Shown here one piece after another: positions 31,901-56,490 of a DNA stretch of 56,759 nucleotides; within the stretch, counting starts at the first letter, position 1, and every line of letters begins with the position of its first letter. The DNA comes from Chloromonas sp. AAM2. Its lineage: Eukaryota > Chlorophyta > Chlorophyceae > Chlamydomonadales > Chlamydomonadaceae. The position numbers were made by a program, and so were the translations under genes. The DNA lies in contig QAXH01005875.1 in NCBI GenBank assembly GCA_004335635.1, positions 1,689 to 58,447 of the forward strand, written 5' to 3'. The notes under the pieces were generated by a model. It ran no database searches. It was not told where the DNA came from and was given only the letters and a program-made list of their open reading frames with translations.

Positions 31901-34900
31901 GCGCGGGAGGGGGGGCAACCTCACCCTGGGGGAGCAGAAAGCACAATGCCATGCAACATGCATAAGCACCTGAATCCACTGGCGATGGAGACAGAGACAG
32001 GCGACAGAGACGCATGTGGGAAATGCAGGAAGAGATCACAGAACAAGCAAGGAGGCAACATCAGCTACTTATCACACACGCTGGAGACGGGGATGACGCT
32101 GGAGATGGAGAGCGGGAGACGACGGCCCCAAATCTTCCGCTCCAGTATTCATGCGAAGGTTTTGATTAGCCATGCACGGAACAGAAGCGGCAAGGCAGAG
32201 GCACTGCTGCTACCCCTCTCCAGGTTGCTAGTGATGGCAGCATTGGCTTGGCAGCTTCAGCTGCAGAAGAGAATAACGTCGTGCTTGCTGGAAGATGCGC
32301 ATGAGCTGACCGCCCTTGGCCCCTCCCCACTTCTCAACTTTCGGCTCCCAAGCCTCCACATCCAAAGTTCTACAAATGATGGCAATGGCTGCCTAGCCTG
32401 ACTCACAGTGAGGGGTGGCAGCGGGTCGTAGTTGCCGAAGGGACCCCATCGTGCGGGGGCGGGCCCGGCAATGTACGCCACTGCACGCTCATCGCTATCC
32501 TGTGGGAGGGTGAACAGAAGAAGGCACAGATAAGGTGTGTGAAAAGTGTGCGTCGGTGTGTGTTGCCTGGTTCAAGCAGCAACGGAAACACGAAGGTGGA
32601 CGCGTGCGCGAATCTGCCCTCACAAATAAAAAACGTACGCATTGGCAGCAGTTTTGAATTGCAAAGGCTCCAGTACAATCCTTGAAGCTGCAAACGCCCA
32701 GCGCCACCCTATCCCACCCCAGCACCCCTTATTCAACCCCACCGCATCCACACCATCCATGTCACTCAATCATATCCAGGGCTTGGTGTAGCTAGGTGGA
32801 GCACCTTCAACCTCAGTAGTCCGCTTTCTCCCTTTTGGCTCTAAAACAGACCTTCCAGAGGACCCTGAACCTTGCATGTGCTTGATTTTTGGCGGCATCA
32901 TGCCCATGCCTTGTTTAGGATAGGGATGTTGGCTGCTGCTGAGCTGGTTGGTCCTGCGGTACCGTGGGTTTGACCATGATAAGCTATGTAAAGATGATTA
33001 TGAGTCAGTAGTACGTCTAACACCAACCCCACGCCACGCCCTCAGGCCCCCACCTGCAGGTGCCAGGCCGCATGCCTCTCCTCAAAGGGCAGGGTCTGGA
33101 ACCCCTGCGTCACGTGCTCAATGGGCAGCACCTTCTCCGGCTGCCTTGGCGCCACAGTGCCCAGGTACCGCAGCACCAGGTCCTCAATCACCTGCCCGTC
33201 GATGTCACCCACGATGTTGATCTCAATGGCATCTGCGCAGCACAGGACAGATAAGCATGAGTACTGATGACAGATCTTGTCAACTGCTGTTCACAGACCC
33301 GTCAGCGTCACCAACCAGGATGATCTCAATTGCGTTCATGGTGCGGAGAACAGGCAGGATGTGGTGGGAGCAGGCAGGCACCTCTGGCACTAACTATGGC
33401 TAAATGCAACTGTGATAACAGATGAAGATAGAAACCGCTGACCAGTTGAATTGGTACCCATGTGGTACCTCTGGCACTACCTAGGCACGATGGCTGAATG
33501 CAACTGTCATAGCAGATGAAGATAAAAACCGCTGACCAGTTGAATTGGTACCCATGTGGTACCTCTGGCACTACCTAGGCACGATGGCTGAATGCAGCTG
33601 TCATAACAGATGAAGATAAAAACCGCTGACCAGTTGAATTGGTACCCATGTGGTACCTCAGGCACTAACTAGGCACGATGGCTGAATGCAACTGTCATAA
33701 CAGATGAAGACAAGAACCGCTGGTCAGCTTGACTGTTCCTTCCTTGCGGTGCCCATTCTGTTCCGTGTACAGTGCAATACGCCCAGACACAGACGCACAC
33801 ACGTGCCTTTGCCTCTGACTTCCGGTCCATTCGTTAGAACAGATACCGGCACGTACCCAACTGTAAGAAAAACTGCTCCGCAACAAACCCAGTCCGGTTA
33901 CCTGCATGCATGAGTCCCATTGTGGTCCTCCTGACCCCCTCCAGCGTGAGCGCGTCCAGCTCCTCCTCGGTGGGGTCACGGAACTGACGCGTGGAGGGGC
34001 CGCCCATCATCATCTGAAAGAAACATCACTTGCAACGTTGGCAAACTGCAATATTCTAGATTCGCTTTGGACAAAAGTGTTGGACTTGGGTGCATGGGAC
34101 CATTCATCATCATCTGAACACAATGCATTTGCATTACATCTGCCAATTATGCGCAACATGAAGTACAAGTATCAACAGCCCAGGCTTCAAGAATATCTCA
34201 GAACCTTGGCAAACGGGCTTTTCGGTTACACGCATGATCGTGACATGCACCATGCACTTGCACAACATGCAGTAGCAGGACATCAGCATGCATCTGGACC
34301 AGCTAAGAACACGACGACTGCGGATTGTCTTGCAAAAAGCGTCAACAATTACAACCACACCTGGTACGATGAAGTGCTGTTCCTATGCATGTGGTACCAA
34401 ACAGCCCCTCAAAACGCCATTCACCTGCATGATGCGCTCTGCCGTTGCCTTCTCCAGGCTCTTGCTCATGGTGCCCTTGTTGTTCACGTAGTGCGTCTTG
34501 GCCCGCTTGAGCGCCTCCGCGTCCCACACAGGCTCCTCCAGGAACATGTGCAGCAGCTCAAACGCAGCCTCCATGCTGCCATGACCAACCTGACGCGAGC
34601 AAACGGTGGCAATGGAGCTTGAGACGCATGGATCAACGTGTTCGGCTACACTCCAGCTGCCTTTCACACATCATCATCATCATTACATAGCTTCTCATGG
34701 TTCAACCCACGGTACCGCAGGACCAACCAGCTAGGCGCTCAGCAGCAGCCAACATCCCCATCCTAAGCATATATGGCTGGCATCTAATTAGTATGGCTGG
34801 CGAGATATTAACACAAAGTGTGTGCACAGTAACAAAGGAAAGTGGCAGTTGCTTGAGGGTGTGACCCAACCCAGACACATTGTTATGTGCATCTTCACCA

Positions 34901-37767
34901 CAATCGACCCCTCAGACTCACCGCAAAGTGCATGTCCATGAGGTTGTTTTCCTCGTCGCAGTCCGTCATGATGTTGACCAGGTTGGTGATGCAGAACACC
35001 TCCACCTCGTCACGCTTCCAGCTGCCAACGGTGCCAACCTGTGAGGAAGGGGGGGGTGCAACTAGTAGCCAGATTAGTAACCAGTTAAGTTGTAACCTAA
35101 CACAAAACAAGCTACACCAGCTACTAAGCTGATTGCAAGTCTTGCTCACACCCAGGATGTGGCTGCAACAGCTACAAGCCACAGCTCAGATCGAACGCAT
35201 TGAGTAGCTATTGTAGTTATTGTAGCTATTGTAATGTAGCTGTAGCCGCAAATGTAGCTGCAGCGGCTACAGCAACTCTACAGGTATAGCTATGACTAGA
35301 GCCCCCTAGTGTCCCAGGAACGAGTGACGGCCAATCCACACAAAGTTGAAGTTGCAGCTGCAGCCACTACCACCGTGCCCACCTCGTTGAGCGTGCTTGG
35401 CCCGAGCACCACTGCGCCAAACCCATCAGGGCCCACGTGCAGCTTCTGTGCGGCCTGGCCTCCGGGTGCGATGATCCGCAACAGAGCGCCCTGCGAGGAA
35501 CACCAACAAAAACATACACGTTGAATGAGGCATGTAGTCGTGCATATCCACCCTTCTACTGTCACGTCCGGCCACACCTTGCTCACTCCTCTGTGCCTGG
35601 CAGGCTCAACTATATTTGGCAGGCTTTACTATATTTGGGCCAGGAGTCACACACCAGGCCAGTATGATATGCATATATTTAGTACAAAATACTGTGTATA
35701 GTCGCCAGTAGTCCCCACCAACTACCTTCTAGCGGCAGCATGACGTTTCAAGGCATGTAATGGCAAAATGCAGAGCGTCAACAACCTAGTGCCTGGCCAG
35801 GCAGCTGACTTCTCATCCTTGCCTGCGGTTCGTTGTCGGTGTGTCGGTAGTTGAGTCGCATGCCGTTGGACAGCCGCCGCTGCACAATGCCCGAGTGCGG
35901 GTCGGGGGGTGGGAAGGGGTTGCCACCGGACCCTTCGCCGTCCAGGGGCACGTACCGCGGCTGGAGGGAACCGACCTGCAGCACAAACACACCATGCATC
36001 AGCACGATCATGCAGAGCCCGCAATCCAGGGACGAATGTAAACCCATTAACTGGCTGTGTGTGTGGCGATTGACATTAAAATGAGAGCTAAAATGGAGCA
36101 ATCAAGACTGGGAAGCGCATAGCAAACAGAGAGGGTTTTCAATCTCCCTGTGGCAAGCTCTTGCGTACAGCCATCACCGTGACGAGAACGTCAGCCAGCC
36201 ATGTATGGTGTGCGGTATGGTCACATCTAGTCACCCTTGCCGCCGTCAAGTCGCATGCGCACAAGCATCAACCCCTGCTTGATAGCCTCAACAGTTGATG
36301 CACATGCGGAGGACCAGCCTGATGCTGCTGCCCATCCCACCACACCTGCGGCACTGTCACTGAGTGATTACACAGTCAACTATCCAACCACCCACACTAT
36401 CAGCCTGTGTGCCTCCTTAAGTCAGCGCCCCCCACGCACCTTAGCCGCCGCCGAGTCGGGAGGGAACAGGTGCTTGGGGCAGGCCACGTCCACGGGCGCC
36501 TCCACCTCGTAGCTCATGTCGGACAAGACCGCCTGCACGTCAACGGTGGCAAAGCCAAATGTCAAAGCACTGTTAGCTGTGACAATGATTACATCTGCTG
36601 CTTGTGGCGATAGAATAAGCACCATGACATGGTTTAACGTGGCTTAGCCCACAGCTAGAATTATGCGCCCGGAAATCACTCAGTGGATTGTGGTCATTAG
36701 CAAGGCCCATGGAAGCAGGCTCAGCTGCGCTGAATACATCACACATGCTGGCTGATCTACAGTAAGACTCGCATGTGAGTTTTGGTTATATGCACACCTG
36801 CACGTCCGCTGTGGGGATGTCAAAGCGAATGGCCCCCTCGGGCACCGACTCCTCCTCCAGCGCTAACAGGCGCGCCTCCTCCTCAATGGCCTTGAGGTCC
36901 ACCTGAACAGGCAATTATGTGATTATTTTAAGTGTTGGATTAGTGTTAACACCCTGCCAGTCATGTCAGTAGTCAGGTACAGGTGAGAGTGGGCACGAAT
37001 CGGCGTGCAGCATGGGAATGTGCACTGGCGATGATGCATGCATGCATGCATGTGTGCACATGTGGATGCAGACACACATACTCACGCGTGTTGTGTGGTG
37101 TTGCTACTCTTGGCGCTTGAATCGTGGATCAGCTGGCATTCAGTTCTTTCACACGTGTGTCTGTCAAATGAGCACATGCGTATGATGTTTTGGTGGATAG
37201 ATGGCGCGTTCTAAACTCACCGAGTCCACGTCAATGTGCCCTGCAGCGCCCAGGTTCGCCGATCTGCTGGCCGCAGCTGCACTGCTGATAGTAAGCGCAT
37301 CGCCAGTGGCAGACACGTAGGCGGGGATGCACGCAAGGATGGAGGTGGTGCGTGTGGGGCCCAGGAAGGTGTAATGAGAGGGGTGGGCGTCGGCATCGGC
37401 CAGGGCAGCGGCCTCGTGACCGTAGTCAGAGGCAAACGTGAGCATAGACCTGCAAGTTTTGAGTGGTGTGTGTGAAAGAGTTTGAATACTGTACCGTGCT
37501 TGGTTTCAGGAGCAGCAATAATAGCAATGATCACATAATTGCAAAGTGTGCATGAAGATCATCAGGATCCTTTTTGCCACGTGCACGATTATTGCCAGTT
37601 CCTCGCTGGTGCAATGTTCACTACCAAACTGCCCCTGCCACGTTGTGTGGCAGTGCAAACAAGGTAACCGGCCACGCCATCTGTCAGCCCACATGTTCCA
37701 GTGAGCTGGAGGTCCTCGCCTGTGGGTCCTAAGGCGCGCTGCCCTTGCTACAATAATGATATTAATG

Positions 37768-37801
<34 letters not shown>

Positions 37802-40800
37802 TGATAGTAATAATAGTAATAATAATAACAATAGTGAGAATAACAATAGTAACAATAGTAACAATAACAACAGCAACAACAACAATAAAGAACTGCCCAC
37901 CTTGCCAGTGCGTTGGCATCTTCTAGCGTGACCTGCTGCGACACCTGCACCATGGCCTCGTGCGCCTCCCGGTGCTCCATGACCGTGTGACCGCAGGCGA
38001 GGCTCTCCATCACGAAGTTGAGTGTGTCGAGGGAGGGGATCTTGTTGCCCTGCAGGTGAGAGGAGGCATGCGTCACGCATGAGGTTTTTGACTTGCGTCC
38101 ACCTGTGTGCTTGTGCGGCGTTAGCTGGCCGGAACAAGCCAGTGAAGACTCTTGTTTCAAAGTGCTGATTGTGTTGATTCCACGCGGCCTGCCCCTGACC
38201 CTCACCTGCCCTCACCAATCCCACTTCTTCCTGTACCTCTGTTCTGCCCCTGCGCCTGGCCTTTATTCACTAAGGCGGCTGTGCACTGTCCCTCCCTTGA
38301 CCATCAGGTCCGACCCTGCCCCTCACCTGCTCCGCTAGCTGTGCGCTGTCCCTGGTAATCGCCGCCGTGTACCGCTCCAGCTCCCCGGCCGTCAGCCCAT
38401 ACCGCTGCAGTCGCCTAACCTCCTCCACCGCCACCCGTGTGGCTCCAGCCCAGTGCGCGGGTTCACTGGTGATGGTGAGGGTGGATACCATGCAGCCCTC
38501 GCGCCCGCTGTCGCTGATGTCCAGGGAAATGCCCATGAAGGGCGGGTCAGCGGCAACGTACCTGGACACGTATGTAAGATTACGAGGTAAACCAGTGTGC
38601 ATGGGTTGCAAACACTGTAACATGCGGTGTAACATGCAAATGAATGGGTTGCATGCCGACAGTGCAGCATGCAGTGTAAGACAACACAACACATAATCAA
38701 CACGAGCGCATGGCATGTGAATCGGCGTCAATCATGTGAAACCCAACCCATGCCAACCTCACCTCTTGTTTATCCTGAACTGGAAGGTAGACAGCAGCAC
38801 GCGCACCAGGAACATGCGCTTCAGGTGTTCCATGCGAGACATGCCCACGATGGGCAGCTTGCAGAAGACAGACAGCATGTAGTGCTGCAAAACAAAAGGT
38901 GGTAAAGCATCATGTGATGCAAAACATAAGGGACATGAAGCACGAGGGAAACCCTGATGGAACAGACATGCCACGGCGGCTCAAAAAGGGCGTTTTGATT
39001 GCACTAAGGCTGAATCGCAAAATGCATAGTGACAGGTAACCTCAAGATGCCGAAGGTCTCCAGTGCACTCCCTCTCACGTCTGGTCCTTTGCACGTCTGG
39101 TTTTGCAGCGCGTGAACAACGCCCAGCATTTGCTGCTCGGTGGTCGTTTGAGCTCACCAGCCAAGTTTGCTACCTCCCATCCTTTGGTTGTACCCTATGT
39201 GTATGTTTCTATGCATTTGCAGCACTTGTACAGTACGTACCTGCAGCAGTGGATGCCTAAACACGTTGACTGGTGCCGGCTCAAACCCAGGCTCCAGGGG
39301 CCCGTACCCCAGTGTGTGCACCACAGGCGGCCGCACTGCATGGCGCTGCTTCAACAAAGTAATGCCGTTTCCATTGCCGTTTCCGTCGGTTTGCGCGATG
39401 TCCAGGTCCGCAGCCGCGGCCACTGCAGCGGCTGTGCTGGCAGCGGCGCTGCCTGGTGTGCGGCTGCCGGCTGGTAGAGCGACGTAGGCGGGCGGTTGGT
39501 GCCCGTCGGATGCTGCTTTTGACAGGGCTGCCAGGTGCTTGACTTGTTGGGCTGTGGTGCTTGCAGGCGGCAGATTACCAAACACCTGCAAGACAAGGCA
39601 CAACGTTCACGTTGCACTTCAATTCACCTGGCGTCTGATTCCTTACACTCCGTACCGGTTCCTTCTGGCCTTCTCTAACACCTATCCTGCAGCTGAATCC
39701 ACTCCACATTCACTCGTCACCCTGGCCCTGGCAATGATGATGATGATACTAGCCTGGAACTGCCAGTATGCCCTCAGTTCAGGTGAAATGTTAGCAAGAA
39801 GCTCACAAGTCATCATCGCCCACCTGTCCAATGAGTGTGCGTGTAGCCTCGATGTCTCTGTCCAGGTCCCCCACCACGTACAGCGTGGCGTTGGCTGGAA
39901 AGTACCACTTGGACCAGAAGTCGCGCAGCTGAGACTGGGGCCACTTCTGGACCTGGTCCATCTTGCCAATAGGAAACCTGTAACAATGGCTTGTTTCAGG
40001 TCTGTAACTTGTGTGGCATAAGAGAAAACCAGGCAATAGGCGTGTACAGATTGATAGCAGGGGAAAGAGAGGGTTTGACATGGCAGGCAAGATCACAACA
40101 ACAGACACTGTGGCAGGTTCACAACAACAGACACTGTGTGGGTTCACAACAACAGACACTGTGGCAGGTTCACAACAACAGACACTGTGGCAGGTTCACA
40201 ACAACAGACACTGTGTGGGTTCACAACAACAGACACTGTGTGGGTTCACAACAGCGGACACTGTGGCAGGTTCACAACAACAGACACTGTGTGGGTTCAC
40301 AACAACAGACCAGCTGCTTGTTGAACCATCACCACAGCTCAGGTGCGAGCTGTGGTGGAGGTACCAAGTGCACACGGCTAACAACACGTCTGGTTTGGCC
40401 TGCAGCAAGCTGTTTACAGATGATGACATGGGAAAGAGTGGGCTGACATGACGCGCACATTCACAACAGCAGACAATGTGGCAGGTAGACGCCAACACTG
40501 TGGTCTTCAGCTCAAGCCAGGTTGACAACTACCACCCCAGCTCGCTGTTAGCCATGTGCAATTGCTATAGCTCCCACCTATATCCCAAGTTGTTCTCATG
40601 GTGCAGGTACTGCAGCAGCTGGCAGTCCACTCGGTACTCGATGGTGTTCATCATCTGCAACGTCACAAAGGCCATGCTTGATCAGTGACGACAGGCCACA
40701 CTTCAGCAGGAATGTCAGGACAAAACTCCAATGATCTGCACTGAACTCCCAGACTCAAACACCTCCTGGGCATGCGACCGATCATGCGCCAACACAGCCC

Positions 40801-43170
40801 TGCCATGCACCAGCTGCCCACTTGAATTGCTCCTGTTTGGCGCCCCAAGTAAGGCTGGAGCCCAAGTCCTTACGTCCACTCGGCTATAACCGGTTTGTTC
40901 CTGGTCTGTTGCAGGCAGCTGCTCGGTTTGAAAGCTTGCGCTTTCAGTACCGGCAGATGGCAATGCCTAGTGCTGATGTTGCTGATCAGCCGTTTGCTCA
41001 TGATCACCAAAGGGAGACAAATGTGTCTTGTGCTGGGCTACGTCTGTTGCTGTAGTGAGATACCGCTGCAATTGGCCAGACCAGCAGAAGAACGAGCATT
41101 CCTGCACATCTATGGCCAACGCCAGTATGGCATGCTGCACACAACACTGCCCAGTCATCCTGCTTGGGTGAGTCGCCTGCTGCAGAACAGGTGTCTACAC
41201 CAGGGTGCTTTTGAACAGTTTTCCATGCCGGGGCGCTGTTCCCATCGTGGAGCTGCTTCGGCATAACCCTCTCCCTTTCTGAGCTGGCCAAGCGTGGTCA
41301 TGCTGAGCGCCGCCTCACCAGGCTGCATCCTGCTGCCAGTCCCAGCGCTGCCACTGCCACTGCTGCAGCCACTGATTACAGGCTGATTGATACAGCCAAT
41401 GCCATCAGCAGCCCAACTGCTTCCACTGTGCTGCAGCCGACCCCATGCCGATGACAGTGCTGAAGGAAGCTGCTGCTGGTGGCAGTGCCGCCATGCACGC
41501 GCCTCCGCCATGCACGTGCCGCACAAGATGCCAAACGCACAAGCTGTAGCACAAAACGCCTTCCTTGCTGCCACCAGATCAAACCAGCTGTGCTGCCTTT
41601 GCCGTGCTCGTAGCCTGTTACTCTGTGCATCTGCTTTGTTGTTTCCTTGGTCTGTGGCCCCTCTGCGTGATCCAGGCCTGACGCCGTGTGCACCTGCCTC
41701 CTCCCTGGTCTGTGGCCCCATTCCCCTGTAAGCCTGACCAATCTCACCTGTGCCTCTGCCATGACTGCCTTACGCTCCTTCTCAATGCGCAGTGGCAGGA
41801 ACTGAGGGTTGAACGCAATCTCCTGCAGAGCCTCAAGCACCTGCAGAACACATCAATGGCAGTGAAGATACAGACAGGTGAAGCTTTTGTGGAACCATTT
41901 AAGCCTGACTTGCACTGCAAATAGCCTGCCCTTGGCTGCTGACAATAATAACTTCTTGGCTGAGGCATCGCTGGATTTCAGAGCATGGTCTTATCTCCCG
42001 CCTCCGTATAGCTGTGGTGGGTAGATGGCATGTGCTGCCGTCCATACCATGCACGGCTGGTTGACATGAGGAGAAGCCAGCTCAGCAGCATGCACACCTG
42101 AGGGAGCATGGGTGCCTTGGTGTTGGAGTTGGTGATGGGAGAGTGGACATGGAACACAGTGTGGTGAAAATCTGTGTATGCATTCGCACGCGCGCCGCTA
42201 CCCAGCAGGTTCTCGCGCCGCTGCGAACCCAGGAACGTGACATGCTCCACCAAATGCGCAATGCCTTGCTCGTTGGGAAGCTCATCCACGCTGCCTGCAT
42301 GGACTTCCAAGTGCGCCTCGAAACGCTTCGGTGGCAACTTGTTAGGGTAAATCACGTAACGCAGGCCATTTTCCAGCTGTCCGGTCACCAAGCGCACATC
42401 CCGCTTGATTTCCGCGTCCAGCATGGAACGTACATCAGTGCTGCCTTCGACGCCGGCCTGAAAGTGCCACAGACGACCCAAGAGGAGGTTAGGTGAAGAG
42501 ATCGATTGCCTGAAAGGTACAAGAGTGGCTTCCTGCTGCACAGACACTTGCCAATGAGACGGGAATGTGCATGCAAAACAATGGAAATGTACTGGGATAA
42601 TCTGCATCTGTATATGTGTCACCAATCCGGCCACAGAAACACACCCATGCCCTGCAAAAGTGCCCCTCACCAGCACTGCGCTGATGATAATGCGACCTCC
42701 ACGCCTTGTGACTGCCCCATGAATGTAAGGCCCTTGCATGGCTGATTTCCTGGGTGCAGGCTGCACGGGTGTGCCCCATATACGAGCTGTGCGTGCTGAA
42801 GCTTGGGGCAGCAAGGCCCTGCATACAACGACAATGGCACCATGCAACTCCCCGCCATGGATTGTCAAAAGCAGTGGCAGAGCTAGAGTGTTCTCTGATT
42901 CCTGAAACATGTACGACCGGCTGCCTGTCTGTCTGCCAAGTGACATGGCATCACGATGCGCCACCTCATTACCACACACTGTGAGCTCTTCCCACCAACC
43001 TACCCGCGAGAGCGACCCCTTAGCATTGAGATGGGGGTGCATGATTGCGCTCCAGTGCCACGTTGTGCTGTGACTCGGTGATTGTTGAAGGTGGCTGTGC
43101 CTGGCCTGGGCGCTATGGCGGTGCGGCCCCCCAACTGCAAGCCTGGCTGATGCCCGACGAGCGGAGCCAT
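28956..43170 (-). CDS. SPP: chloroplast stromal processing peptidase (M16)
   Basis: Metalloendopeptidase that removes transit peptides from imported chloroplast proteins in the stroma. Exons (minus): 43170-43004, 42818-42671, 42457-42098, 41840-41748, 40654-40578, 39977-39824, 39585-39241, 38884-38763, 38561-38327, 38049-37901, 37449-37221, 36902-36798, 36532-36440, 35975-35823, 35490-35383, 35038-34922, 34589-34425, 34013-33902, 33232-33054, 32499-32407, 31925-31773, 31405-31332, 31050-30802, 30464-30373, 29580-29471, 29090-28956. Every junction keeps phase: about 1338 residues, close to plant SPP. The zinc motif HLVEH is at 173-177, with the distal glutamate at about 254. Plant-SPP signatures include GARANAYTDFHHTVFHVHS, QMMNTIEYRVDCQLLQYLH, SDSGREGCMVSTLTITSEP and VRDSLGLTYDVSFE. 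The first ~100 residues lack family similarity and look like a basic transit peptide. Intron 14 starts with GC. It is divergent from MPP alpha, 341 bp away. Confidence 0.95.
29762..30293. mobile_element. hAT-type MITE with 8-bp target site duplication
   Basis: A 516-bp element (29770-30285) in the SPP intron between exons 30373 and 29580. The ends are inverted repeats CAGGGTCGTCGAAAGCGG / CAGGGTCATCGGAAGCGG (16 of 18 match). It is flanked by a perfect direct repeat GCCTATAC (29762-29769 and 30286-30293). CAGGG termini plus an 8-bp duplication are hallmarks of the hAT superfamily. Many subterminal AAAGCGG/CCGCTTT motifs also fit. It has no transposase, so it is non-autonomous. Confidence 0.9.
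33381..33730. repeat. minisatellite, ~93-bp unit, about 3.7 copies
   Basis: Units start CCTCTGGCACTA and contain GATGAAGATA-AAAACCGCTG and TTGAATTGGTACCCATGTGG. Starts fall at 33381, 33469, 33562 and 33656, with a few substitutions. It lies in the SPP intron 33233-33901. Confidence 0.9.
34669..34725 (-). repeat. dispersed repeat C, copy 4
   Basis: CATCATCATCATTACATAGC, then TTCTCATGGTTCAACCCACG and GTACCGCAGGACCAACC. This is the same layout as 3912-3981. SPP intron. Confidence 0.65.
37751..37890. repeat. (AAT)n / (AAC)n low-complexity tract
   Basis: Mixed AAT, AAC and AGT trinucleotides over about 140 bases, ending 10 bases from SPP exon 37901-38049 on its donor side. Confidence 0.9.
40094..40314. 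repeat. minisatellite of two alternating 25/26-bp unit types
   Basis: Eight complete units of CACAACAACAGACACTGTG followed by either TGGGTT or GCAGGTT, plus a partial ninth. A diverged unit lies at about 40461. SPP intron 39978-40577. Confidence 0.9.
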
Positions 43171-43511
43171 GCTGCTAGTTTCTAGATATCTACTCCGAGC
43201 TGCTCCTTTTTGATGAATCGCTTCCGAGGTTGTTGTCTGCGGGAAACGAGCTGCCTCGGCAGTGTGTCGAGTCTGATGTGGCAAGCCGCAATACCTGAAT
43301 TGATTAGAGTTGCAGTTGTCCAACGCCAAGAAGCAGAGACGCGAGGAGTCAGAAATCTCGAGTTGCCACGTGCGAGGAGTTTCTCTCAGGTTACGGAGTG
43401 CTGCCAAGTCAGTCGGAGCAGGCTTGCCAAGCGCAGTCTTGTTGAGTTAACGCCTCATCAATCTTGATCAGTCCTTGGGTGAGGAGGGTTTTTCTCCTGC
43501 CCATCACTGCC
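43171..43511. promoter_or_regulatory. bidirectional promoter region, SPP and MPP alpha
   Basis: These 341 bases lie between the start codons of two divergent organelle presequence peptidase genes. The segment also has to hold both 5' untranslated regions. I see no clear TATA box; the sequence is moderately GC-rich. Shared control is inferred from geometry. Confidence 0.55.
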
Positions 43512-46500
43512 ATGCAGCGCAAGGCCGCATCGTTGCTGGGAGCCGTGCGCAGGTTGCATGCCAGCGCTGCAGCACAATATGCAGAGACAACCAGCATCAG
43601 TGAGCAGCCCGGCTTGGGGGCAAGCACCAGGACAACCGGGCTTGCACCTGCAAGCAACCGCGCTGCCGGCAGCCCGCCCTTCCTTTCCTGGCTCCCAGAA
43701 GCACGCAGAAAGCTTATACAGACCCCTCTCACGCAGTCTCTACCTGGCCTGACGATTCATCCCCCTTACCGCGCGCCAGACAACCCTCCACCCACAGAGA
43801 TCACCGTCCTGCCTAATGGAGCCCACATCATTTCAGAGGCATCTCCTGTGAGTGTCAGGCATGTTGCATGGCAACACTTCATCAAGCTATTGGCAAGTCA
43901 ACAGGCAAGAACAATGTGCACTGGCTGGACCGTTGCAGGCCAGCTACACCCACACAGTGTGCTGCTAGCCATCCACCAGCATTCAGACATAACCAGCGGC
44001 CAGAATGCTGATGGCAGCAACTAGCGTTCAGCCACGTGCAATGCCACCCCAGTGGGCAAGGGTGGTGCCGTGGCAGCCACTTCTGTGCGTATTCGGTCAG
44101 CAACGAAGGCCACTAGGCACGACAGGAACACACCATATGGCTTGCATGAGTTGAGAGCACAATCCTTTCATCACTCAATGACATGCATCCCCATGCCATG
44201 GAACATGCTTTGAACCTGCAGGGCCCTACTGCCAGCATTGGCGTGTACGTCAACTCCGGCTCTATATACGAGGCGCCCAACCAGAGTGGTACCAGTGCTT
44301 TGTTGGAATGTCTAGCCTTTAAGGGCACACGCAATCGCAACACACTAGCCATCATGAAAGAGGTGCGTGTAACATGGCGCACTGGCCAACTTGTATTCAG
44401 GGTAACCTGGGCATGACCCGATGGGAAGTGAACAGGCCATGGTTGGATTGCTGCTAGGCCAGAGTTTGCGCCAGTCATACACAAATTTGCATGTGCAAAG
44501 ACAGGCCCAACGGTCTCCATACACATGGCCCACAGGTCCATGCAACCGCATCAGAACACATGACCGCCATCCGTGCAACACATGCATGGCGGTGGTGGTT
44601 GCCGTACACCTGCTGCTGTACATGCCTTATGCCACGCCCCTCGCACCTGGTCGCGTGTCCCATCCATCTGCTGCATGTCAGGTGGAGCGTGTGGGCAGTA
44701 CATTTGCGGCCATGGCGTCCCGTGAGCAGATGTCCTACACCATGGACTGTTTGAAGACCAGCCTGCCTGTCAGCCTGGAGATACTGTGCGATGCAGTGCT
44801 CAATCCAGCATTCGTACCGCAGGAACTGGAAGAACAGAAGGTGCGCTGGGCGGACTACCACAAAGAGTGTTTCATTGAGTTCTAGGATCACAAAGGCACG
44901 TCGGTCACACTGGCGCAGAGTTTCGCAATGGGCATTGTTCATGCCAGTGGTGCGACCACCGCACAATGTATGAGTCATCATGGGTATGACTCACAGCAGT
45001 CATCCAGTGCATGGCATGCATCCACACAATGGCAGGTGTCTTGTTCATATAAAACATATATAAACAAACGCTCATGCTTGTATTTGTTCAAGGGCTCAAG
45101 GTCTGTTCACCAGAGGGGACGATAGGTGATGATGGTTGGACGCTGGATTTACTAGGTTAGAGAAGCGTTAGAGTAGATAGATGGTGATAATTCACCCCTG
45201 TGTCTTCTCAAAAGGGAGGTGTAGATGGGGCAGGGGTATGGATGAGCTGTGCTTTGGCGCCTGTATGCCATTGCAGGCCCGGCTGCGTGCGTTGCTAGGT
45301 GCGCGGGAGGTGGCCATGACACTGCTCAACGAACAGCTAGTACGGGGAGCATACACTGTGAGTGAGTCATCGTGTGGTATGTGTGTCGGTGTCCGAGCGA
45401 GTTGTCATGCCACAGGATGCAAGCAGGCCCTGGGAGTGTCTGGTTGCAATATGAGTGCACCTGAGCATACACCAGGGGACCTTTCCAGCAGGTGTTCGCT
45501 TCACGGCTCTTTTGCGGCTTCTTGTGGACCTTCCTAGGCGGTTTGCCAGGCACAAGCTGTCTGCCAAGATTTTTGTACTTTCAGTACTATCTGCTGGTTC
45601 ATCAACTTTCATGTGCGTCATGTGTTGCACTCCCAGTCTGATGCACTCACACTATTTGCTTGCTACTTACTTCCGTGCACCATGGCCAATGTAATCGTGA
45701 TTGTGATGCTACATGTGATGTGTTCCACTCCCTTTTCCTTTCACAGGGCGCACTGTCGCGCCCTTTGATCCCCGACGCGAACCTACTGGGCACCCTCTCC
45801 CCGGAAGGCCTGCGTTCCTTCTGCGCCACACACTACGCGGGGCCCCGGCTGGTGCTGGCGGCATCCGGGGTGGACCACGCACAATTAGTGGAACTGGCCA
45901 CGCCCATGCTCAGCACAGTGAGGAACAGAAGGGGCTTTCTTTTGCGGCCACTGGGCTTAAGTCACGCGGCGTTGTTGCAATTCATTCCAGCAGTCCATGT
46001 TGCCCTTACCTACAGGCCCCTGCTGGCAACATTCCCCAGGGGCCCCCTTCCTTCCACCAGATTCCATTGCATTTAGACCCAAATTCTATTGCTTCTCCTT
46101 GTGGCGTTCATCCGAGCCTTGAGTGTCTCTCTTTCCCTTCAGGCCCCCAGTGGCGGCGTGCCCGAGGAGCCGCCCTCCACCTACCAGGGCGCCTGCGTGT
46201 CTTTACCCGGCGACGGCCCCTTGGCGCAGCTGATAGTGGGTTGGGAGTACCGGGGCGGGTGGCGGGACGTGCAGGGGGCCGTGGCCATGACAGTGCTAAC
46301 GTATCTCATGGGCGGAGGCGACTCATTCTCGTCAGGTGAGGCTGACTATTAGTTGAGTACTACTTCAGATTATTAAGGTAAGGGGGCGGTAGTGCTCACG
46401 TACCTGATGTGGGAGGGCGACTCCTGGGCTTTAACCCACTTGATCAACTCCCCACTTGCTCTCCATAATCTGGTACCGTAATCACTCGGGATTAATTTGG

Positions 46501-48365
46501 TTTTTTTCTTGAGCAACTATTTTTTGCCAATCTGCTCTGATTTCTGCTTTTCTGTGCTTGACGCCAAGCAATTCTTCAAACCAGTCTGCGTGCAAATCTG
46601 TTCGCCAACTTCGCGACCCACAGACGAAACAAAACCTTGCATCATGTCATGTGCTAGAAGTATCAGCTGCAAGAAGCCATGGCTCACAGTCAGTCGCCCT
46701 GCTTGCCATGGAGCAGAGCGCAGCTAAGAATACTGACGCTGCTTGAAAATCTGGATGATGTGAAGCACGGCACATCGAGTTATTTTCGAGTCTGGTCTCA
46801 TTTCTGCTTTCACGCAAACGCGGTTGACGTCTCTGCATTCACGCAAACGCGGTTGACATCTCTGCTTTTACGCAAACACGGTCTGTTTTCTTCAATCTGA
46901 TCGCCATTTCGGACCCGGGAATTGATTACGCCGGAAGGAACAACAGCGATTACAGTAGTTTCTTACCTGATATACCTCAGCTTGCAGCCTGCGCTGTCAG
47001 CTGCAGGCGCGACCCTGAACGTGTCTGTGCGTGTGCAGATCTTCTTACTGCTTGTTTCGCGTTTTGACGATGCCATTTGTGCCCTTTGCTCATCCTGGCA
47101 GCATGCACATATGAACTGTTTTGGAACATGCTCCTTACGATCTTGGCTGTTGCCTCGCAGGTGGTCCCGGTAAAGGCATGCACTCGCGGCTGTACACGCG
47201 CGTGCTGAACCGCCATGCATGGGTCCACTCGTGCTCTGCCTTCAACGCGACCTTCAACAACAGCGGGCTGGTGGGGGTGCAGGCGGCCTGCGACCCCGGG
47301 CATGCAGTGGACATGCTGGACGTCATGTGCAGGGAAATGGAGCTGGCAGCAAGGTCAGTCACAGAAGTGATTACTCATCCGCAATACTATCAAAAATAAA
47401 TACTTGTTGGCGACAATCCCCAGTGGTCGATTCCACATACCAACTTCAACCATCCCAACCACCAAAACCCATTGTTTTTTCTTCAGATCGCTTACTGTGG
47501 ATGAAGTTGAGCGTGCCAAGCGCACCGCCCTCGCCACGATCTGCAACGCACTGGAGAGCAAGTCAACGAGCGCAGAGGACATCGGCAGGCAGTTCCTGAC
47601 CTACGGCCGGCGCATCAGCGGAAGGCAGTACGCGGATATGATCCAGGCAGTAACGCCCAAAGACGTTTCTGCGTTTGTGGGGCGGTTATTGGAGACGCAA
47701 CCCTCGCTGGCCCTGCATGGCCCGGGGGTCAGTGCTGTCAGCTACGATGCTTTGTTGAGAAGGTAAGGACGACTTAGTATTGACCGTTTACTCCCTGAAT
47801 CGGAATGACCAGGGTTATAGGTTTCGTTTTGACCAAAACCAATCAGATCATAACACTTTAATTCTGACAAAGCCCATTCTAATCTCACAGTGTCGTTGGC
47901 CTTGGCCTTGGCTTCATTCTTGAGTTGGTGCCGCCGCCGGCGTTGAAAGAAGACACGCATTTTCCCCCCGGTCTTGGCAATTTGGTTTCATGTCCGCTGT
48001 GGGCTGCTTGAGTGAGGATTTGCTTCTAGCAGGACATGTTGTTCAATGCAACGTGTTTAGAACTGTGTGAGCTGCTCGTTCAAATGCGCTGAAGAGAGCG
48101 TGCTTTTTGCTGATATTGTTGTGCTGCTTCCGGTGGCCCTGTGCTTTTGACACGCTTACAAAAGAATACAATGCAAAAGGTTTTTCAAGGTTATTGGAGC
48201 GCATGAGTTGCAACGCAATGTTGGTTTTTCATTTCGTGCAGGTATGGGCGAGGGCCCGCCCCTGCAGCGGGCGGGCGAGCAGGCACGGCGGCAGCGGAGG
48301 TGGCAGCGGGTCCGGGGGAGGCACTCAAGAAGATGCTAAGTTTTGGCAGCGGATGGAGGAACTGA
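43512..48365 (+). CDS. MPPA: mitochondrial processing peptidase, alpha subunit
   Basis: Substrate-recognition subunit of the matrix peptidase that removes mitochondrial presequences (in plants also part of complex III). Exons: 43512-43847, 44222-44362, 44682-44840, 45277-45357, 45747-45917, 46143-46335, 47161-47353, 47487-47762, 48242-48365. All in phase, 557 residues. The N-terminus (MQRKAASLLGAVRRLHASAA) is a typical arginine-rich presequence without acidic residues. The M16 fold is seen in TEITVLPNGAHIISEASP and GSIYEAPNQSGTSALLECLA. The catalytic HxxEH is degenerate at 138-142 (ALLEC), as expected for alpha rather than beta. The glycine-rich presequence-binding loop GGGDSFSSGGPGKGMHSRLY is intact. 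Later blocks RLVLAASGVDHAQLVELA and SLTVDEVERAKRTALATI also match. The C-terminal ~40 residues are Ala/Gly-rich. It is head-to-head with SPP. Confidence 0.95.
46801..46884. repeat. 30-bp tandem repeat, ~3 copies
   Basis: TCTGCTTTCACGCAAACGCG-GTTGACGTC units in MPP alpha intron 6, each with small changes. Confidence 0.8.
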
Positions 48366-49776
48366 GTGCAAACACTAACTGAGTGCGTTGTATGTGTTCA
48401 ACCACAAGACCGTGTGGCAGCGGATGGAGGACCTGAGTGCGACAGTCCTTAGGCTGGCGAAACTGACTGTGCGTGTGGCTGCTCATAGCCAGGCCTGGGT
48501 ATGGCATGAGATGGATGTCTCCATTTCCGCCATTTCTGTCCCAACTTGATTTCACACAGATGCCTTCAGCTGGCAGTGGGAATATGAAACAGAGCATAGC
48601 GGCGGCTCATGATCACAGGAGTCGGCAAACTCTGGGCTGGCTTCGCATCTATCCGCCTGCATTTCCCGCCTCTTCAGCCACTCAGCCTCTTTCTCCTGCC
48701 TTGCGTTTACACCTAGCAGAACCATGCCCACAGCTTGCGACATGGGACTGTCCTATCATGTCTGGTCTCCCGTCTCCACCTGGCCAGGCAGTCCACGTGG
48801 GACTGGCCTGGGCCGTGTATGCCTGGGCAAGGGTGCAGTAAAGTGCCTCGCCGGTTTCTCCTCCTGGTATGACCATCCATGTCTTGTCGGTTTCTCCTCT
48901 TAATTCTACTAAAGATTCAACTCAAGATTCTACTATAGATAGACAGTCTCAAACAGTTAAGAGCTCTGTACCCCTTGTGCAAAACTGAGTCACAAGACTG
49001 GAAGTCTCGAGCTGAAGAAGGCACGTGCTTCACATTGGTCACTCTGCTTCGGATCCCATACATGAATTACATGTTCGTTACATCTGGAAGCTGTGCTGTC
49101 GTGCATTACGACCTGCACAAGGGCGTGCCATGGGGGTGACCGTCACCATCACATGTTTTGACCCTTACGCCGGATGGGCATGGCGATCCATGTGGCTCTT
49201 GATGGCGATTGAGCACTGCCTCCCTTTCCAATGATGGGTGGTTGCGTTGCCAAGGCCATGGTTTGCCAGAGCCAGGTTCGGAGACAAGGGGAATAGCAGC
49301 TGTTTGAATGTTGCCAGGTGTTGAGCATACTTTTGAGAAGTGGCATTCTGCGGTCCAGTAACGGATGTCTGTGTCGCAGCTGAGGATCGACTTCGTTTTG
49401 ACAGTCCAAGCGACTTGCTTTTTGCTAACAGTTTGTTTTGTGTTTTAATGCACTCATGGCTGCCTAGTTAGTTGTTCATACTTTCGTGTTAGTGCCCTGT
49501 CCATACTTTTGTGTTGCGTGTTTTGAAGAGTGGTGTTCGGCATGTGTGTGTGTGTGTGTGTGTGCGAGAGGCAGAGAAAGAGGTGCGAGAGTCGTCGGAA
49601 GGGTACACATTGATGCCCTGCTGGCATGCATAGATGAACAGATTTGTTTTGTTCACTTTGATCCGGGATTGTTCACAAGGAGGGATCACTTTGATCTGGC
49701 TTCCATGTTGAAACATCAATGTGTTTTGTTTCAATGCAAGACGCATTCGATTGACCCGCACAGCTCTAGCATTGCT
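48366..49776. other. intergenic; partial copy of MPP alpha exon tail, (TG)n
   Basis: GGCAGCGGATGGAGGA-CTGAGTGC at about 48415-48440 repeats, with one change, the end of the last MPP alpha exon (about 48346-48370). A (TG)n tract lies at 49543-49564. No gene is recognised before 49777. Confidence 0.55.
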
Positions 49777-50001
49777 ATGAGGGGGCTCGGGCGGAAGACT
49801 TGCTGCAGTGTTGCGGCGTTCCCGGCGTCAACACATGGCATTTCCTCGGCAGTCAGATTCATTACTACGAGCGCAAGTCATTTTGCGCCCAGTGCGTCAC
49901 TTCTCAGGCGAGAGGAAAGGCAGCAAGGCTGGCACGAAAACTTCAAGACAGGGGTTGACCTGTTACAAACTGGCACTGCCAAGGATGCGAGAAGGTACTG
50001 A
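49777..50001 (+). CDS. possible small mitochondrial protein (74 aa)
   Basis: Single-exon open frame of 74 residues. The first ~45 residues contain no Asp or Glu and are rich in Arg, Ser, Thr and Ala (MRGLGRKTCCSVAAFPASTH, then AVRFITTSAS), the profile of a mitochondrial presequence. The rest is short and polar and ends KDARRY. It might instead be the first exon of a longer gene, since GTACTG after KDARR could be a donor. I do not recognise a family. It lies between MPP alpha and the transporter, same strand. Confidence 0.35.
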   Translation: MRGLGRKTCCSVAAFPASTHGISSAVRFITTSASHFAPSASLLRREERQQGWHENFKTGVDLLQTGTAKDARRY

Positions 50002-50528
50002 CAGGGGCGCTGACAGAGGACTTCTTGATTGGATTTCGTGGCCACTGTTGGTCTGCATTGAGGTGCTTCTAGTGCAGAGCCAGGGTAAGACGTCCTTCCC
50101 GCTCTCACTCCTCTACATATACGATTCTTATCGACTGCCAATGGCACAGTTAATACCGCACTCCCTCCTTGTAAAAGCTGGCTCAGCGACCCAAGTGTGG
50201 TGATGATCGCCATCCATGAAATCCCCTTCATGTGGGTTGGACACATTGGGTTGCATATGTGCAGAAGGACACCGTTGCAGCCATAACTTCATTCTTATGG
50301 CACGGTTTCTGGAGGTTTGATTTCAGAAGGTCAACGGCAAGTGCGAAGTCAACGGCACGTGTTGGAGGAACCTTCAGGTTCCACACAAAGATACTTTTCA
50401 TCACAGGCGGCCGGCAACAATTAGCCCACGCGCACTGTAGAATCGCAGATAGTCAATAAATCCCTAGCGACAGGGAGGCGTTGCCAGGGGTTACAGCTCC
50501 TGTATGCCAGAGCTCGCGAGCCATCCAC

Positions 50529-53500
50529 ATGGCGCACACAAATGACGAGGACATCGAACACAAGGGCGAGCCCGAGTAAGCGAGACCTTGCGTTGTTTGC
50601 TCTCCTCTGCTCAAATCGCTCAGCCCAACCGCTCGCCCTTTCTGTTGGCCTGGAACCCTCGTGCGCTCTGCAGACCCGAGGCTCCTCCTTCCACATCCAG
50701 GAAGCGCACTGGCCCACTCGGAGTGCTTGACTGGTACACGGAATGGGCTTTGCCGGGCTTGGGGATGTTCAGTGAGGTGTGAACAGGGGGCCGTGATGGC
50801 GTTGGTCGGCTCTGCACATGCATGCAACTGTACAAGATGCTCTGATGGTGCATGATCCTTGGCCAAACACGACTTAGCTGAGATGATGATCACACCAGGG
50901 GGCCGGCCGCGAACGCTAGCAATCCATGCCAGGGACGCAGCTCGATACCATCCTGACCAACCCTGAGCAGCAGATGATGTTCACATGTACCACGAGCCAG
51001 AAGCACAGACCAAGCAAAAGAGAGGCAATTGCAATGCAAAAGCAGTCCAGAATAATAATAACATAACAGAGCTAAGCCAGTTTTATGTGTGTGGGTTTCA
51101 TCGTCATCGTCATTGTTTGAACAATGCACGAGTGCAGTGATGGGGTTCAAAACCAGGGATTGCACATACAGTCAGGGAAGCTATCGAAGTATATGGGACG
51201 GGATGTGTACCGCCCTTGAGCAAGAGGGAGGAAGAAAGGCACAGAGAACGGCAGGAACAGACCTGAAGGCAGAAAGGAACAAGGCTGAAAGGACGGCAGC
51301 CGGCTATGAAAGATAGAAGTAACAGGGAAAAAGAACACACGAGGCTGCAATGCGTGCTATTCAAGCGGACCATGAAAGAATCCATGGATACCATTGACAG
51401 AATTCATGCATGTAAAGCACGACCCGCTCCTTTGCAAGATTCTCTCTTTGCTTTCGAAACTTTGCAACCTGGAATTTGTTATGACTGTGCATGTGAATGC
51501 GCACAGGCCTACATCATTTTCGCAATCGGGCAGATCAAGCCTCTGCAGCAAGGCCTGTACCCCACATGCTTCAACTCCGAAACGAACTTGATAACGGACT
51601 GTGATCCAGACATGATTGACCACGTGGCCTCATATATCCAAATCTGCGGCATCATGGCTGGAATGCTCATCTGGGGCTTCCTCGGCGACATCACAGGGAG
51701 AAAATGGGGATCCCGCTGTGTGGCCGCTATCATGCTTTCCGGCTGCACCCTGCTGACCTTCTCACCATATGCTGGCAGCCCCTTTGGTTACTTTGTCTTC
51801 TTCATGGTCGCGCAGACATGGTGAGTAGGAAAGGTAGGCACTTGGCGAATCAGACAGGTGTCTGGAAGCGAAATTCGTTGATCACAGGGATTCCAACTCG
51901 TTCAACCTACATGTGAAGGGGATTGCGACACACCAGGATAGATGCACTGCAAGGCCACCAAAAGCAGCTGCATGCATCTCAAGGCAAAAGAGACGATCAT
52001 CACTAATATACTTTGCCAGCATATAATGCTACCACCTGGTTTACCCAAATTCAATCAAGCGAAGCTCTTGAATCAGCTGCAATGCCAATTGGTCCTTTGC
52101 CAGCAAACAGTCATTGAATGCTGTAGCATCTAAACTGATAAACTGCTGTAGCAAGGCATGAGAGAAAATCATCACTTGCCAGCACATAATGCACGTTAAT
52201 GTTGCTGTTGCTTGGGGTTGACAGGAAACTAGAGGATTGATCGTTGCCCTAAGCGCGCAGGTTGCTTCAGGTTTTGCTTCAGATCGTTTCTTCTCCCTGA
52301 GCTGCGCTCTGCTGACAACACCCGTTGACTGCCTGACTCCCGTGCATGCCAGGAATGGAGTAGGTGTGGGCGGCGAGTACCCCATGGCTGCTTCGTCCGC
52401 CGCGGAGCGCGCAAGCACAACGCCAGAACTGCGCGAATTCCGCGGTCGCCAAGTCGTGCTGGTTTTCTCCAACCAGGGTATGGGCATCTTGATCAACTCT
52501 ATCGTCATCGTCGTCTCCATGGCAATCTTTGGGCAGACAGGACCGCAGGACACGTTGACCTTTGATGGGTGCAGGAAGGTGAGTCGCCAGTCTGGTTGTC
52601 GCGCCCTGGGAATTGTCGGCGGCTGCGAACAGTGAGGCCACTGACAGTCACTGAGCTGGATCAGCCTTGCATGTTCAACCGTCGCGGACACTCCCTACCG
52701 CCGGATTGCACAACCCGGTACCTGATAACCTTTTTGATGTTGTGCCGTTTGCATCGCCACGTGCAGGCCTTGGCGCTTGTGTTTGGTCTGGGCTCCGTGT
52801 CATGCCTGGTGCTCGTTCTTTATCGAGCCATTTACTTGGAAGAGTCCAAGGTACGGCCTGTACAAGTTGCATCCTAGCATCCAGCCGCTGCTCGCGCGTT
52901 CCATCTTAGCTTGCCACTGCTCTCGTGTTCGCCGTTTTGCGCTTCTTCGACATGACGACATCCACCTCGCCAGCGCTGTGCAGATGTTCTCGGAGGTTTC
53001 CCAGATTGAAAGTGTTCTCGCTGAAGAGGAAGTACTTCACCACAAGTCCGCCCTGCGCAAGCACGCCGCCACCCTGTACTACTTCTGGCCTCGCCAGTTT
53101 GTAGGCTCAGCAGCCTGGATCTGCAACGACTTCATCTTTTATGGTATGGTGTGCACTGAAAAACAAATTGTGCACTTTGGCATCTGGGTGGACCTCTGGG
53201 TGTCATCTCGCTCACACAGGCTTCAAACTGAGCCCTGCACGCTGTGTATGGGTGCAAATTTGCACGGGCAAGCTACCCTTACAAGCTACAAACAGAGACC
53301 CAAGTTTGGAACCGGGTCAAGTGAACAAACAAACTGCGTATGAGAATCACTGAACAGTGCGCACGAGGGTGGGTTTGCATCAAATGCTTCCTCCTGCTTT
53401 TCCATCAGTGTGTAACTGTACTGTGCTGACTGCGATCGCAGGCAACAAGCTGCAACAGAGCTTGTTCCTCAGCCTGCTCTTCCCACTGGTAAGCGTAGCA

Positions 53501-55228
53501 TAGCAGCTTCACCTTCACCTTGAGGTTGGCCTGGGAGTGCGTAGGCTCTGGGACGTCGATCTGGGACTCACAGCGGTCGTGGTCAAGAATGGTATGCTAA
53601 CAGTAGATTGATTTCACAACAGGCTGGAGCTGCTGACAGCCATGCAAGGGCCAGCTTGCATGATGTGATTCTGCAGTCTGTTGCCATCGCTCACAGACAT
53701 GCCTGCTCCATTAACTTGTCAACCGTTACTCCCGCAGGCCACCCCTTATGTCCAGCTTCAGTGGAGCGTTCTGAACAGCTTCATCGCCCTTCTGGGATAC
53801 TATGCCGCAGCTTGGCTCGTGGACAAGGCCTGGTACGGCCGCAGGCGCATGCAGACTGTGGGGTTCCTCGCCATGTTTATCTTGAACATCATCATCTACG
53901 GCGAGTGGACGAATATGGGTGCCAAAACAGCACCGGAGAGCGGAGCCAAGGCCTTTCAAGCGCTGTACTACTTGTCATCCTTCTGCATTCAACTCGGACC
54001 AAACGCAACAACGTGAGTATGTTAGCTTTCTTTTTCGTTGTGTATGCCGGGTGACTACTATTTGGGTGGCCGCCATGCTGCCGACAGAACGTTTCGTTGG
54101 GTTGATCTGCTTGGATGCTGCAGTTGGCTCGTCGCTGGCGAGATATTTCCCACCGACATTCGCACGACCGTACACGGCCTCGCTGCATGCCTGGGCAAGT
54201 TGGGCGCCATCATCGCCACCCTGTGGATCTCTTATATTAGCGACAAGCGCAAGGTATTCCTGATCAGCGCACTGTTCGGAATTGGCGGCGCGCTTGTGAC
54301 CTGGATCTGGCTGCCCGACACCACTGGTCTGGAGCTGGAGGAGTACGACCGCATGCAGCGCTACATCTACGAGGGCCGCTTCCACGAGTACCACGGCGAC
54401 GCAGTAAACCCTAGGCACTTGTCCAACTGGGAGATCTATGTGCTGAGATGGCACAAGGTGAGCATCACCGCAAAGCACCGCAGTTTCTTGTCTGCGACTA
54501 ACCTGTCTGCCACTAACCTGTAGTCTGCGACTAACCTGGATGGAAATCCGGCAGTTGCGGCGGGACACGCTGGGCTAACTGTACTACCGGAATTTGCCAG
54601 CCCTGTGGACACTAATGGTCACTAATACTGGTTGGTGTTTGGTTCTTAGGTTGTACGCGAGCAGACGTGCTTTAATTCACAACAACACGAAGCAGCTGGC
54701 TGCTCGAACGGTACCTCAGCGAAGCGCCTGAATGCGCTTTGCTTCAAACTGTTTGTCTTTCCCCGCAGGCGTACAATCCTGATCTTGATCGTGACGCATT
54801 TGGGGAGGAGATGCGGCGCATGGCCAAGGTGCCTGGCGCACAGGCGGAGATGGCGCGCATGCATGTGAGTACGAGTGCAACACTTGAGCGGCAGAGCTGC
54901 GATGATTCACTCTTAAACACACCACCCGACATCGGCCTGTTCGCATGACAGATAGGCGACTTGGTGTCATGGGTGCACGCCAGGCTGCCACAGTGGTCCA
55001 TCCACTCCAGCTCCCATTTTTTCTTCCTTGTCAGAAACTGTGACCGCCCATGCTGCACCAAACACACCACATGCCACACCAGAAACAAACGCGATGGTCA
55101 AAAGAATTCTAATGCTGTTTGGGCGGTTGCAGGTGCTGCAGCCGGAGGCTTCCACAGAACTCAGCCAACAGTTAGAAACGCATGCCAGACTGGCACGTGA
55201 AGCCACAGGTTTCCATACCCCGCCATAA
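50529..55228 (+). CDS. major facilitator transporter, phosphate permease type
   Basis: Exons: 50529-50575, 50674-50776, 51507-51820, 52353-52578, 52767-52850, 52984-53143, 53442-53488, 53738-54012, 54124-54457, 54769-54864, 55133-55228. All in phase, 593 residues. A short polar N-terminus (MAHTNDEDIEHKGEPE) precedes TM1 (ALPGLGMFSEAYIIFAIG). The MFS loop motif GDITGRKWGSR follows (from residue 110), and the GVGVGGEYPMAASSAAERA signature of the phosphate:H+ symporter/GIT1 branch (from 157). A central cytosolic loop (EVSQIESVLAEEEVLHHK) separates the halves. The second half has DFIFYGNKLQQSLFLSLL, a second MFS motif (VDKAWYGRRRMQ), GPNATTWLVAGEIFPTDIR and VTWIWLPDTTGLELEEYD. It probably imports inorganic phosphate (or a glycerophosphodiester) across the plasma membrane. 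The C-terminus is cytosolic and polar. Intron 2 holds a repeat B copy. Confidence 0.92.
51160..51320 (-). repeat. dispersed repeat B, copy 3
   Basis: Reverse copy: CAGGGAAGCTATCGAAGTAT, GGGACGGGATGTGTACCGCC, then a purine-rich body (GGAAGAAAGGCACAGAGAAC). Inside transporter intron 2, between exons 50776 and 51507. Confidence 0.75.
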
Positions 55229-55540
55229 TTGCACCAGGCGTGCCTCAGGTGCAAAGGCCCTAGTTGGTGGAACAGCAGCAGCTCCTCTGAACTCGTGAAT
55301 GAATCCATATGCGCAATCGAATTCTTACAATGGTCACGTGACTTGTGTCGTCACTGGCAAAGGCACGGCTGATTGTTTAGCACTCAACCCAACGGGTAAT
55401 AAGAATTGTGACAGGGTATAATTGTTGTTTAGCAAACTGTGAACCTTAGATCGGAACTAACTAGGCTACTTTCTCATCACAGGTTTTTATATTCTGCAGT
55501 TGATGCCAGAACGAACAGGGACAGTGCTCCCTTGCATAGA

Positions 55541-55603
55541 AAAAAAGAAGTCTGCCAGTTCTGGACAGTTTGTGTGAATAGGTCTGTATTACCGCCAGGA
55601 ACC
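55541..55603 (+). repeat. dispersed repeat A, copy 6
   Basis: AAAAAAAGAAGTCTGCCAGT, TCTGGACAGTTTGTGTGAAT and GTCTGTATTACCGCCAG. This is the longest match to the right arm of the inverted pair at 19171-19492. Confidence 0.7.
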
Positions 55604-55877
55604 ATGACAACCAGCACACACACCACAAACACACTGGTTCCAGTGCCAGTCCCAGGAACTGTCCCTTTTTTTTGTCAGGCAGCGTTTGCAATCAGGTCCG
55701 CAACTGCGATGGCATCAAGTTTTACGAGAGACAAGAGTGCAGGCAAGAGGCGCTTATGCCGGATGTTGAAATGCAATGGTGGTTGCAATGGCGTTGATGA
55801 GCGTCACGTTCTTGGGCATGTGATGGACCCTTATCAGAGGACACGCGTGCTTCTGAAATCATGATGTGATAGTGAGT

Positions 55878-56057
55878 CGCCTTCCTTTCTTTTTTCTTGC
55901 TCTTTCTCTTTTTTTTGTCCTTGTTCGTTTCTGCGTTTGGGCATATTTCTGCATTTGTTCCTTCCTTTCTTCTTTCTTGCTCAGGGTAGGTCAGGGCGGT
56001 ACACATCCCGTCCCATGTTTAACGGCTTCCCTGATGAAACAATTCAATCAATCAAAC
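55878..56057 (+). repeat. dispersed repeat B, copy 4
   Basis: Pyrimidine-rich start, TTTCTTGCTCAGGGTAGGTC, AGGGCGGTACACATCCCGTC, GGCTTCCCTGATG and an (ATCA)n tail. Closest to copy 1. Confidence 0.8.
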
Positions 56058-56490
56058 GATGTCTAATGGACGTCGCCTGGGCACTAGCTTGCTGCCCGCA
56101 GGGCGTATTTGAAGCCCGCGTCTGAGTCATTTTTAATCAAACAAAACCAAAAAAACCCAGCTCCTCAGCTCCTAGTGGCCAGGCGATGCGTCAAAGAGCC
56201 TGGTTGTGTACTCTATCCCTTATTCATTTCCGAAGTCTGAACTGTAAAGTGCAGCTATCTTGATCCTGGAGGACATAGCGAATGCACCAACCTGATACAG
56301 CAGCTTGTTGCTTCCTTGGATTGTAACCGACCTCGCTGGGCTAAACATTCACAGCCTTGACAGCTTGATCAAAACAGTTGTGGTCACTGCTCTGTGTTTA
56401 CATCAACAGTCTTCTCACAGCCGGAGCAAACAGCATCACGACCTGATGAACACTTGAATCCTAACAGCATGTTATCACGCAGTCTTGAAC

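Follow-up and report, generated by a model that had tools for sequence, protein, structure and literature searches.

The SPP and MPP alpha genes and the gap between them

The window (the whole stretch of 56 759 nucleotides of Chloromonas sp. AAM2 DNA that was analysed) contains two M16-family genes, one for the chloroplast stromal processing peptidase (SPP) and one for the mitochondrial MPP alpha subunit, with their 5' ends facing each other across a short gap. The features are as follows.

28956–43170, minus strand: SPP (chloroplast stromal processing peptidase, M16); 26 coding exons, 1306 aa, computed model
43004–43170, minus strand: SPP exon 1, with the start codon and the first part of a putative transit peptide; computed splice model
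43171–43511, no strand: SPP–MPP alpha intergenic region; 341 bp, GC 52.5%, putative shared promoter
43512–48365, plus strand: MPP alpha (putative MPPA1 type); 9 coding exons, 557 aa, computed model
43512–43847, plus strand: MPP alpha exon 1, encoding a mitochondrial-type N-terminus, MQRKAASLLGAVRRLHAS...
43512–43847, 44222–44362, 44682–44840, 45277–45357, 45747–45917, 46143–46335, 47161–47353, 47487–47762 and 48242–48365, plus strand: MPP alpha coding exons, computed

Both gene models were built by picking exon cores in open frames and solving the splice sites, with donors restricted to GT or GC and acceptors to AG. The last two SPP exons (29580–29471 and 29090–28956) come from inspection of the sequence, and the C-terminus encoded by the final one resembles that of relatives. 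With GT donors only, SPP yielded no splice path; its intron after 35823 requires the GC donor GCAAGG. Neither full-length model contains an internal stop. Both models are computational predictions, and individual exon boundaries may be misplaced by a few codons.

The predicted SPP carries the zinc motif HxxEH, as HLVEH, at residues 173–177. This motif is present in 118 of the best 120 SPP homologues (of 596 rows). Aligned over 1143 positions with a Marchantia protein that bears the name 'stromal processing peptidase, chloroplastic', the predicted protein shows 44% identity, and its 1306 aa fall at about the 1200–1300 aa of SPP, the name carried by its relatives. The first 108 residues lack any acidic residue, a composition that fits a putative plastid transit peptide; this leader resembles those of relatives mainly in its length and absence of acid. 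Two repeat arrays lie within SPP introns: a 94-bp unit present 3.5 times (95% matches) at 33396–33722, and a 26-bp unit, GGCAGGTTCACAACAACAGACACTGT, present 8.8 times at 40086–40310.

In MPP alpha, the glycine-rich loop GGGDSFSSGGPGKG is intact at residues 353–366 and HxxEH is absent. The loop pattern occurs in 113 and HxxEH in none of the best 120 MPP alpha homologues (of 909 rows). The top PDB matches are MPP-alpha chains (7jrg_B, E 8.7e-108). Judged by its sequence, the protein is therefore the non-catalytic subunit, without HxxEH. Its N-terminus, a candidate mitochondrial presequence, is similar to that of relatives and is basic, rich in Ala and Leu and free of acidic residues until residue 25, a run that chance would give about once in ten.

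The sequence-only reading had placed SPP (minus strand, ATG at 43170) and MPP alpha (plus strand, ATG at 43512) head-to-head and 341 bp apart. This was correct: both start codons were located, each being the first in-frame ATG downstream of an in-frame stop, and the gap from ATG to ATG is 43171–43511. The span given in that reading, 43004–43847, is bounded in the computed splice models by the 3' ends of the first exons of SPP and MPP alpha. As in other bidirectional pairs, the genes are adjacent, on opposite strands and with facing 5' ends.

The gap sequence matches once in the 74-Mb assembly, which rules out a repeat. It contains a single CACGTG (G-box), at 43367. Across the window this hexamer occurs 47 times against 22.75 expected (SD 5.47; no shuffle reached 47), so the copy in the gap is uninformative and was rejected as a promoter signal. 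No promoter motif stands out in the 341 bp. A scan of 43100–43600 for bacterial-type promoters and terminators gave nothing, and such a scan is uninformative for a eukaryote.

Elsewhere in the window, some 3 kb past the end of MPP alpha, plus-strand exons resembling those of an MFS/sugar transporter gene lie at 51267–54520; 54026–54520 matches Pfam Sugar_tr (E 1.5e-10), and 51267–51821 gave only matches below the cut-off. A matrixin exon (Peptidase_M10, E 8.1e-12) at 7798–8253 on the minus strand perhaps belongs to a gametolysin-like gene. An assembly gap of 86 N lies at 26597–26682.

Copy number and other MPP subunits

The strain's own assembly (74.4 Mb, 2324 contigs) was searched with relatives of both proteins, and only the best candidates were scored. 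All 20 scored SPP matches lie on the contig of the window (C1815). The MPP alpha relative gave 10 matches, of which seven are exons of the window gene; the other three, two on contig C1903 and one on contig C875, are weaker paralogues. No second copy of SPP or MPP alpha was found among the candidates scored, and both genes are likely to be single copy.

The two other contigs carry related subunits. The gene on C1903 is alpha-like, and no glycine-rich loop was seen by eye in its long open frame. It matches the 'Alpha-MPP' chain 9f5x_1Q at E 2.7e-111, against E 1.9e-49 for the window MPP alpha. If 9f5x is, as we take it to be, a Chlamydomonas respiratory supercomplex, C1903 carries the alpha of the complex-III type (MPPA2), and the alpha of the window is of the MPPA1 type. 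C875 encodes the catalytic MPP beta, with the motif HFLEH and a best match to MPP-Beta. Both MPP beta and the second alpha-like gene thus lie on contigs other than that of the window. The partner of SPP is the loop-bearing alpha and, because this subunit is non-catalytic and beta is encoded on C875, the pair covers only half of MPP.

Adjacency of the two genes in other green lineages

Conservation of the pair was assessed by protein searches with both models, in which the serial locus tags in the row names were compared. Tags were read by eye in the best 120 of 909 rows for MPP alpha and the best 120 of 596 for SPP, each row being a cluster at 90% identity; such tags give gene order, not strand. 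Among these rows, the SPP and MPP alpha tags are adjacent in all four other Chlamydomonadales with comparable tags.

Edaphochlamys debaryana: SPP HYH03_004550, MPP alpha HYH03_004551; longest contig 1524586 in both rows
Pleodorina starrii: SPP PLESTB_000841000, MPP alpha 000841100; longest contig 3556314 in both rows
Volvox reticuliferus: 'Vretimale_918' in both rows, a single name that may stand for one merged locus, whatever its layout; longest contig 5524336 in both rows
A EukProt species, placed in Chlamydomonadales by the SPP tree: gene27064-2297 and gene27065-2298; no contig data

The synteny search that the sequence-only reading had proposed therefore finds the two genes as neighbours, by locus tag, throughout the comparable Chlamydomonadales. 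Adjacency was found in none of the eight other green-lineage genomes with comparable tags, five of them chlorophytes and three streptophytes (Myrmecia, Coccomyxa elongata, Botryococcus, Bryopsis, Tetraselmis (Tetstr1), Chara, Mesotaenium and Adiantum), so the pairing does not extend to the green lineage in general. Because adjacency is also seen in four relatives, an assembly error is unlikely to be the source of the pair. The adjacency of SPP and MPP alpha locus tags across Chlamydomonadales is new here.

Genomes with only one of the two proteins among the rows read do not enter this count. Those with MPP alpha only include Astrephomene, Gonium, Sanguina, C. schloesseri, Raphidocelis, Chlorella, Parachlorella, Apatococcus and Symbiochloris; those with SPP only include C. 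incerta, C. eustigma, UWO 241, Polytomella, Monoraphidium, Ostreobium, Cymbomonas and Nannochloris; and most land plants likewise have one protein listed. Tetradesmus (both proteins, no serial tags) and rows without a name were also set aside, as were Trebouxia, Auxenochlorella and Micractinium, for which the two rows differ in species, strain or assembly. A search for fragmentary models with residues 1–617 of Edaphochlamys SPP yielded no new pair in the best 120 of 197 rows; its best row is a further EukProt SPP fragment, gene19762, with no listed partner. Scans of a viral contig set with Edaphochlamys SPP and MPP alpha brought up no algal relative, nor did a scan of the genome contig set with the MPP alpha, which gave three bacterial M16 genes (21–23% identity).

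In the SPP tree, rooted, like that of MPP alpha, at the midpoint, the window clusters with 11 other chlamydomonad rows (100/100) to the exclusion of two Sphaeropleales rows. The volvocines and Polytomella form one group (98/95) that does not include the window gene, which is grouped instead with the EukProt species, C. eustigma, UWO 241 and three further rows (89/83, below the threshold for starred groups). In the MPP alpha tree, the window, the EukProt species, two Sphaeropleales and the volvocine group are unresolved, and no starred set contains the window gene. Since the adjacency is present on both sides of the window/volvocine fork in the SPP tree, it probably dates at least to the common ancestor of the two lineages, if it had a single origin.

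A putative shared promoter region and its alternatives

The conservation of the pair within Chlamydomonadales, together with the short gap, suggests a conserved and probably shared promoter region. On balance we favour a reading in which the 341 bp constitute one bidirectional promoter region that gives the two genes correlated basal expression. With the usual leader lengths, 341 bp between start codons would leave space for little beyond two leaders and one promoter region. The gap would be opened, and would fire in both directions, as a single short promoter region, and basal expression of SPP would be correlated with that of MPP alpha, the mitochondrial subunit that grips the substrate. Co-expression of the two genes, and selection for it, are predictions of this reading.

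Comparable arrangements have been described. The divergent histone pairs of green algae (PMC8226298) are likewise head-to-head and kept in several green algae, and the same source describes replication histones as co-expressed in C. reinhardtii. The histone partners belong to one complex, whereas SPP and MPP alpha serve two organelles and their co-expression is putative. The bidirectional pairs of Arabidopsis (PMC2648788) are also neighbours transcribed from opposite strands across a short gap; the limit applied there was 1000 bp between transcription starts, and the distance here is 341 bp between start codons. No description of an SPP/MPP alpha pairing was found in the literature searched, which mostly excluded subscription journals.

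In C. reinhardtii, gene numbers that are 50 apart denote neighbours. The number beside MPPA1 (Cre17.g722800) is Cre17.g722750, which is Ctap4, a TOC-TIC-associated protein, and not SPP (PMC8226298, PMC7768757). Ctap4 is equated with Toc39, an outer-envelope beta-barrel TOC component, in a review (PMC10546890). MPPA1 would thus lie beside a chloroplast import gene in C. reinhardtii as it does here, the partner being a TOC component there and SPP here. This could reflect a wider import cluster, or SPP may not lie on that side in C. reinhardtii. In the window, no TOC match was obtained when 48370–51300 (three plus frames) and 48370–56759 (three minus frames) were compared with PDB sequences, a set assumed to include a Toc39 chain. 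The only hits were antibody domains and acetyltransferases, with E values of 0.16–0.96.

The present data do not separate a shared promoter from architectural retention, which is the main rival and a real, if lesser-than-even, possibility. Here the two promoters would overlap and be independently regulated, almost any breakpoint in the gap would damage an essential gene, and co-expression would not have been selected. The shortness of the gap is in keeping with this, as is the failure to find a second copy of either gene, and SPP is essential in Arabidopsis (PMC3156710). MPP activity also requires beta, encoded on another contig, so that little would be gained by co-regulating alpha alone. Retention alone does not explain why both partners belong to one functional class, although this may be a coincidence for which one ancestral event suffices. 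Adjacency can be conserved without co-regulation, which counts against the shared-promoter reading, as do the lack of a conspicuous promoter motif in the gap, the position of MPP beta on another contig and the Ctap4 gene, rather than SPP, beside MPPA1 in the C. reinhardtii numbering. In favour of that reading, MPPA1 of C. reinhardtii (Cre17.g722800) is reported not to be co-expressed with the other genes of complex III, in contrast to MPPA2 (PMC8226298), which allows a different regulator for MPPA1.

That the two genes are chance neighbours in a single genome is very improbable. The absence of the pair from the eight comparable genomes outside Chlamydomonadales indicates that it is not ancient across the green lineage, which such an origin would accommodate, but adjacent tags in every comparable chlamydomonad, on both sides of the volvocine/window fork, largely contradict it. 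An inverted duplication, in which one M16 gene derived from the other, deserves scarcely any credence. The common family and a weak match over 97 residues (E 2e-7) are all that point to it; identity over those 97 aa is only 28%, the gene bodies show no blastn match, and MPP and SPP derive from separate bacterial transfers according to PMC9291397. The separate origins and the lack of DNA similarity contradict this explanation.

Returning to the shared promoter region, the sequence-only reading had gone further and suggested that one region sets the processing capacity of plastid and mitochondrion together. The identities, the layout and the adjacency on which it was built stand, and the claim about capacity is weakened, the pair including only the non-catalytic alpha, with beta on C875. 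With MPP beta encoded elsewhere, a simple 'processing capacity' switch is less likely. That the gap balances processing between the organelles is a plausible hypothesis. A more specific version, in which one bidirectional promoter, kept since the ancestor of the window lineage and the volvocines, would step SPP and the non-complex-III alpha together and both organelles' processing capacity would scale jointly, is speculative and rather doubtful.

The pair bears on how import capacity is matched between chloroplast and mitochondrion. The distribution by locus tags, with the pair in 4/4 Chlamydomonadales and 0/8 other green lineages, provides an evolutionary contrast, and the pair offers a small, cloneable piece of DNA with which coordinated control could be tested in a model alga. 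If joint control from the gap is real, the pair would be one of a small number of nuclear loci at which the biogenesis of plastids and mitochondria is hard-wired together.
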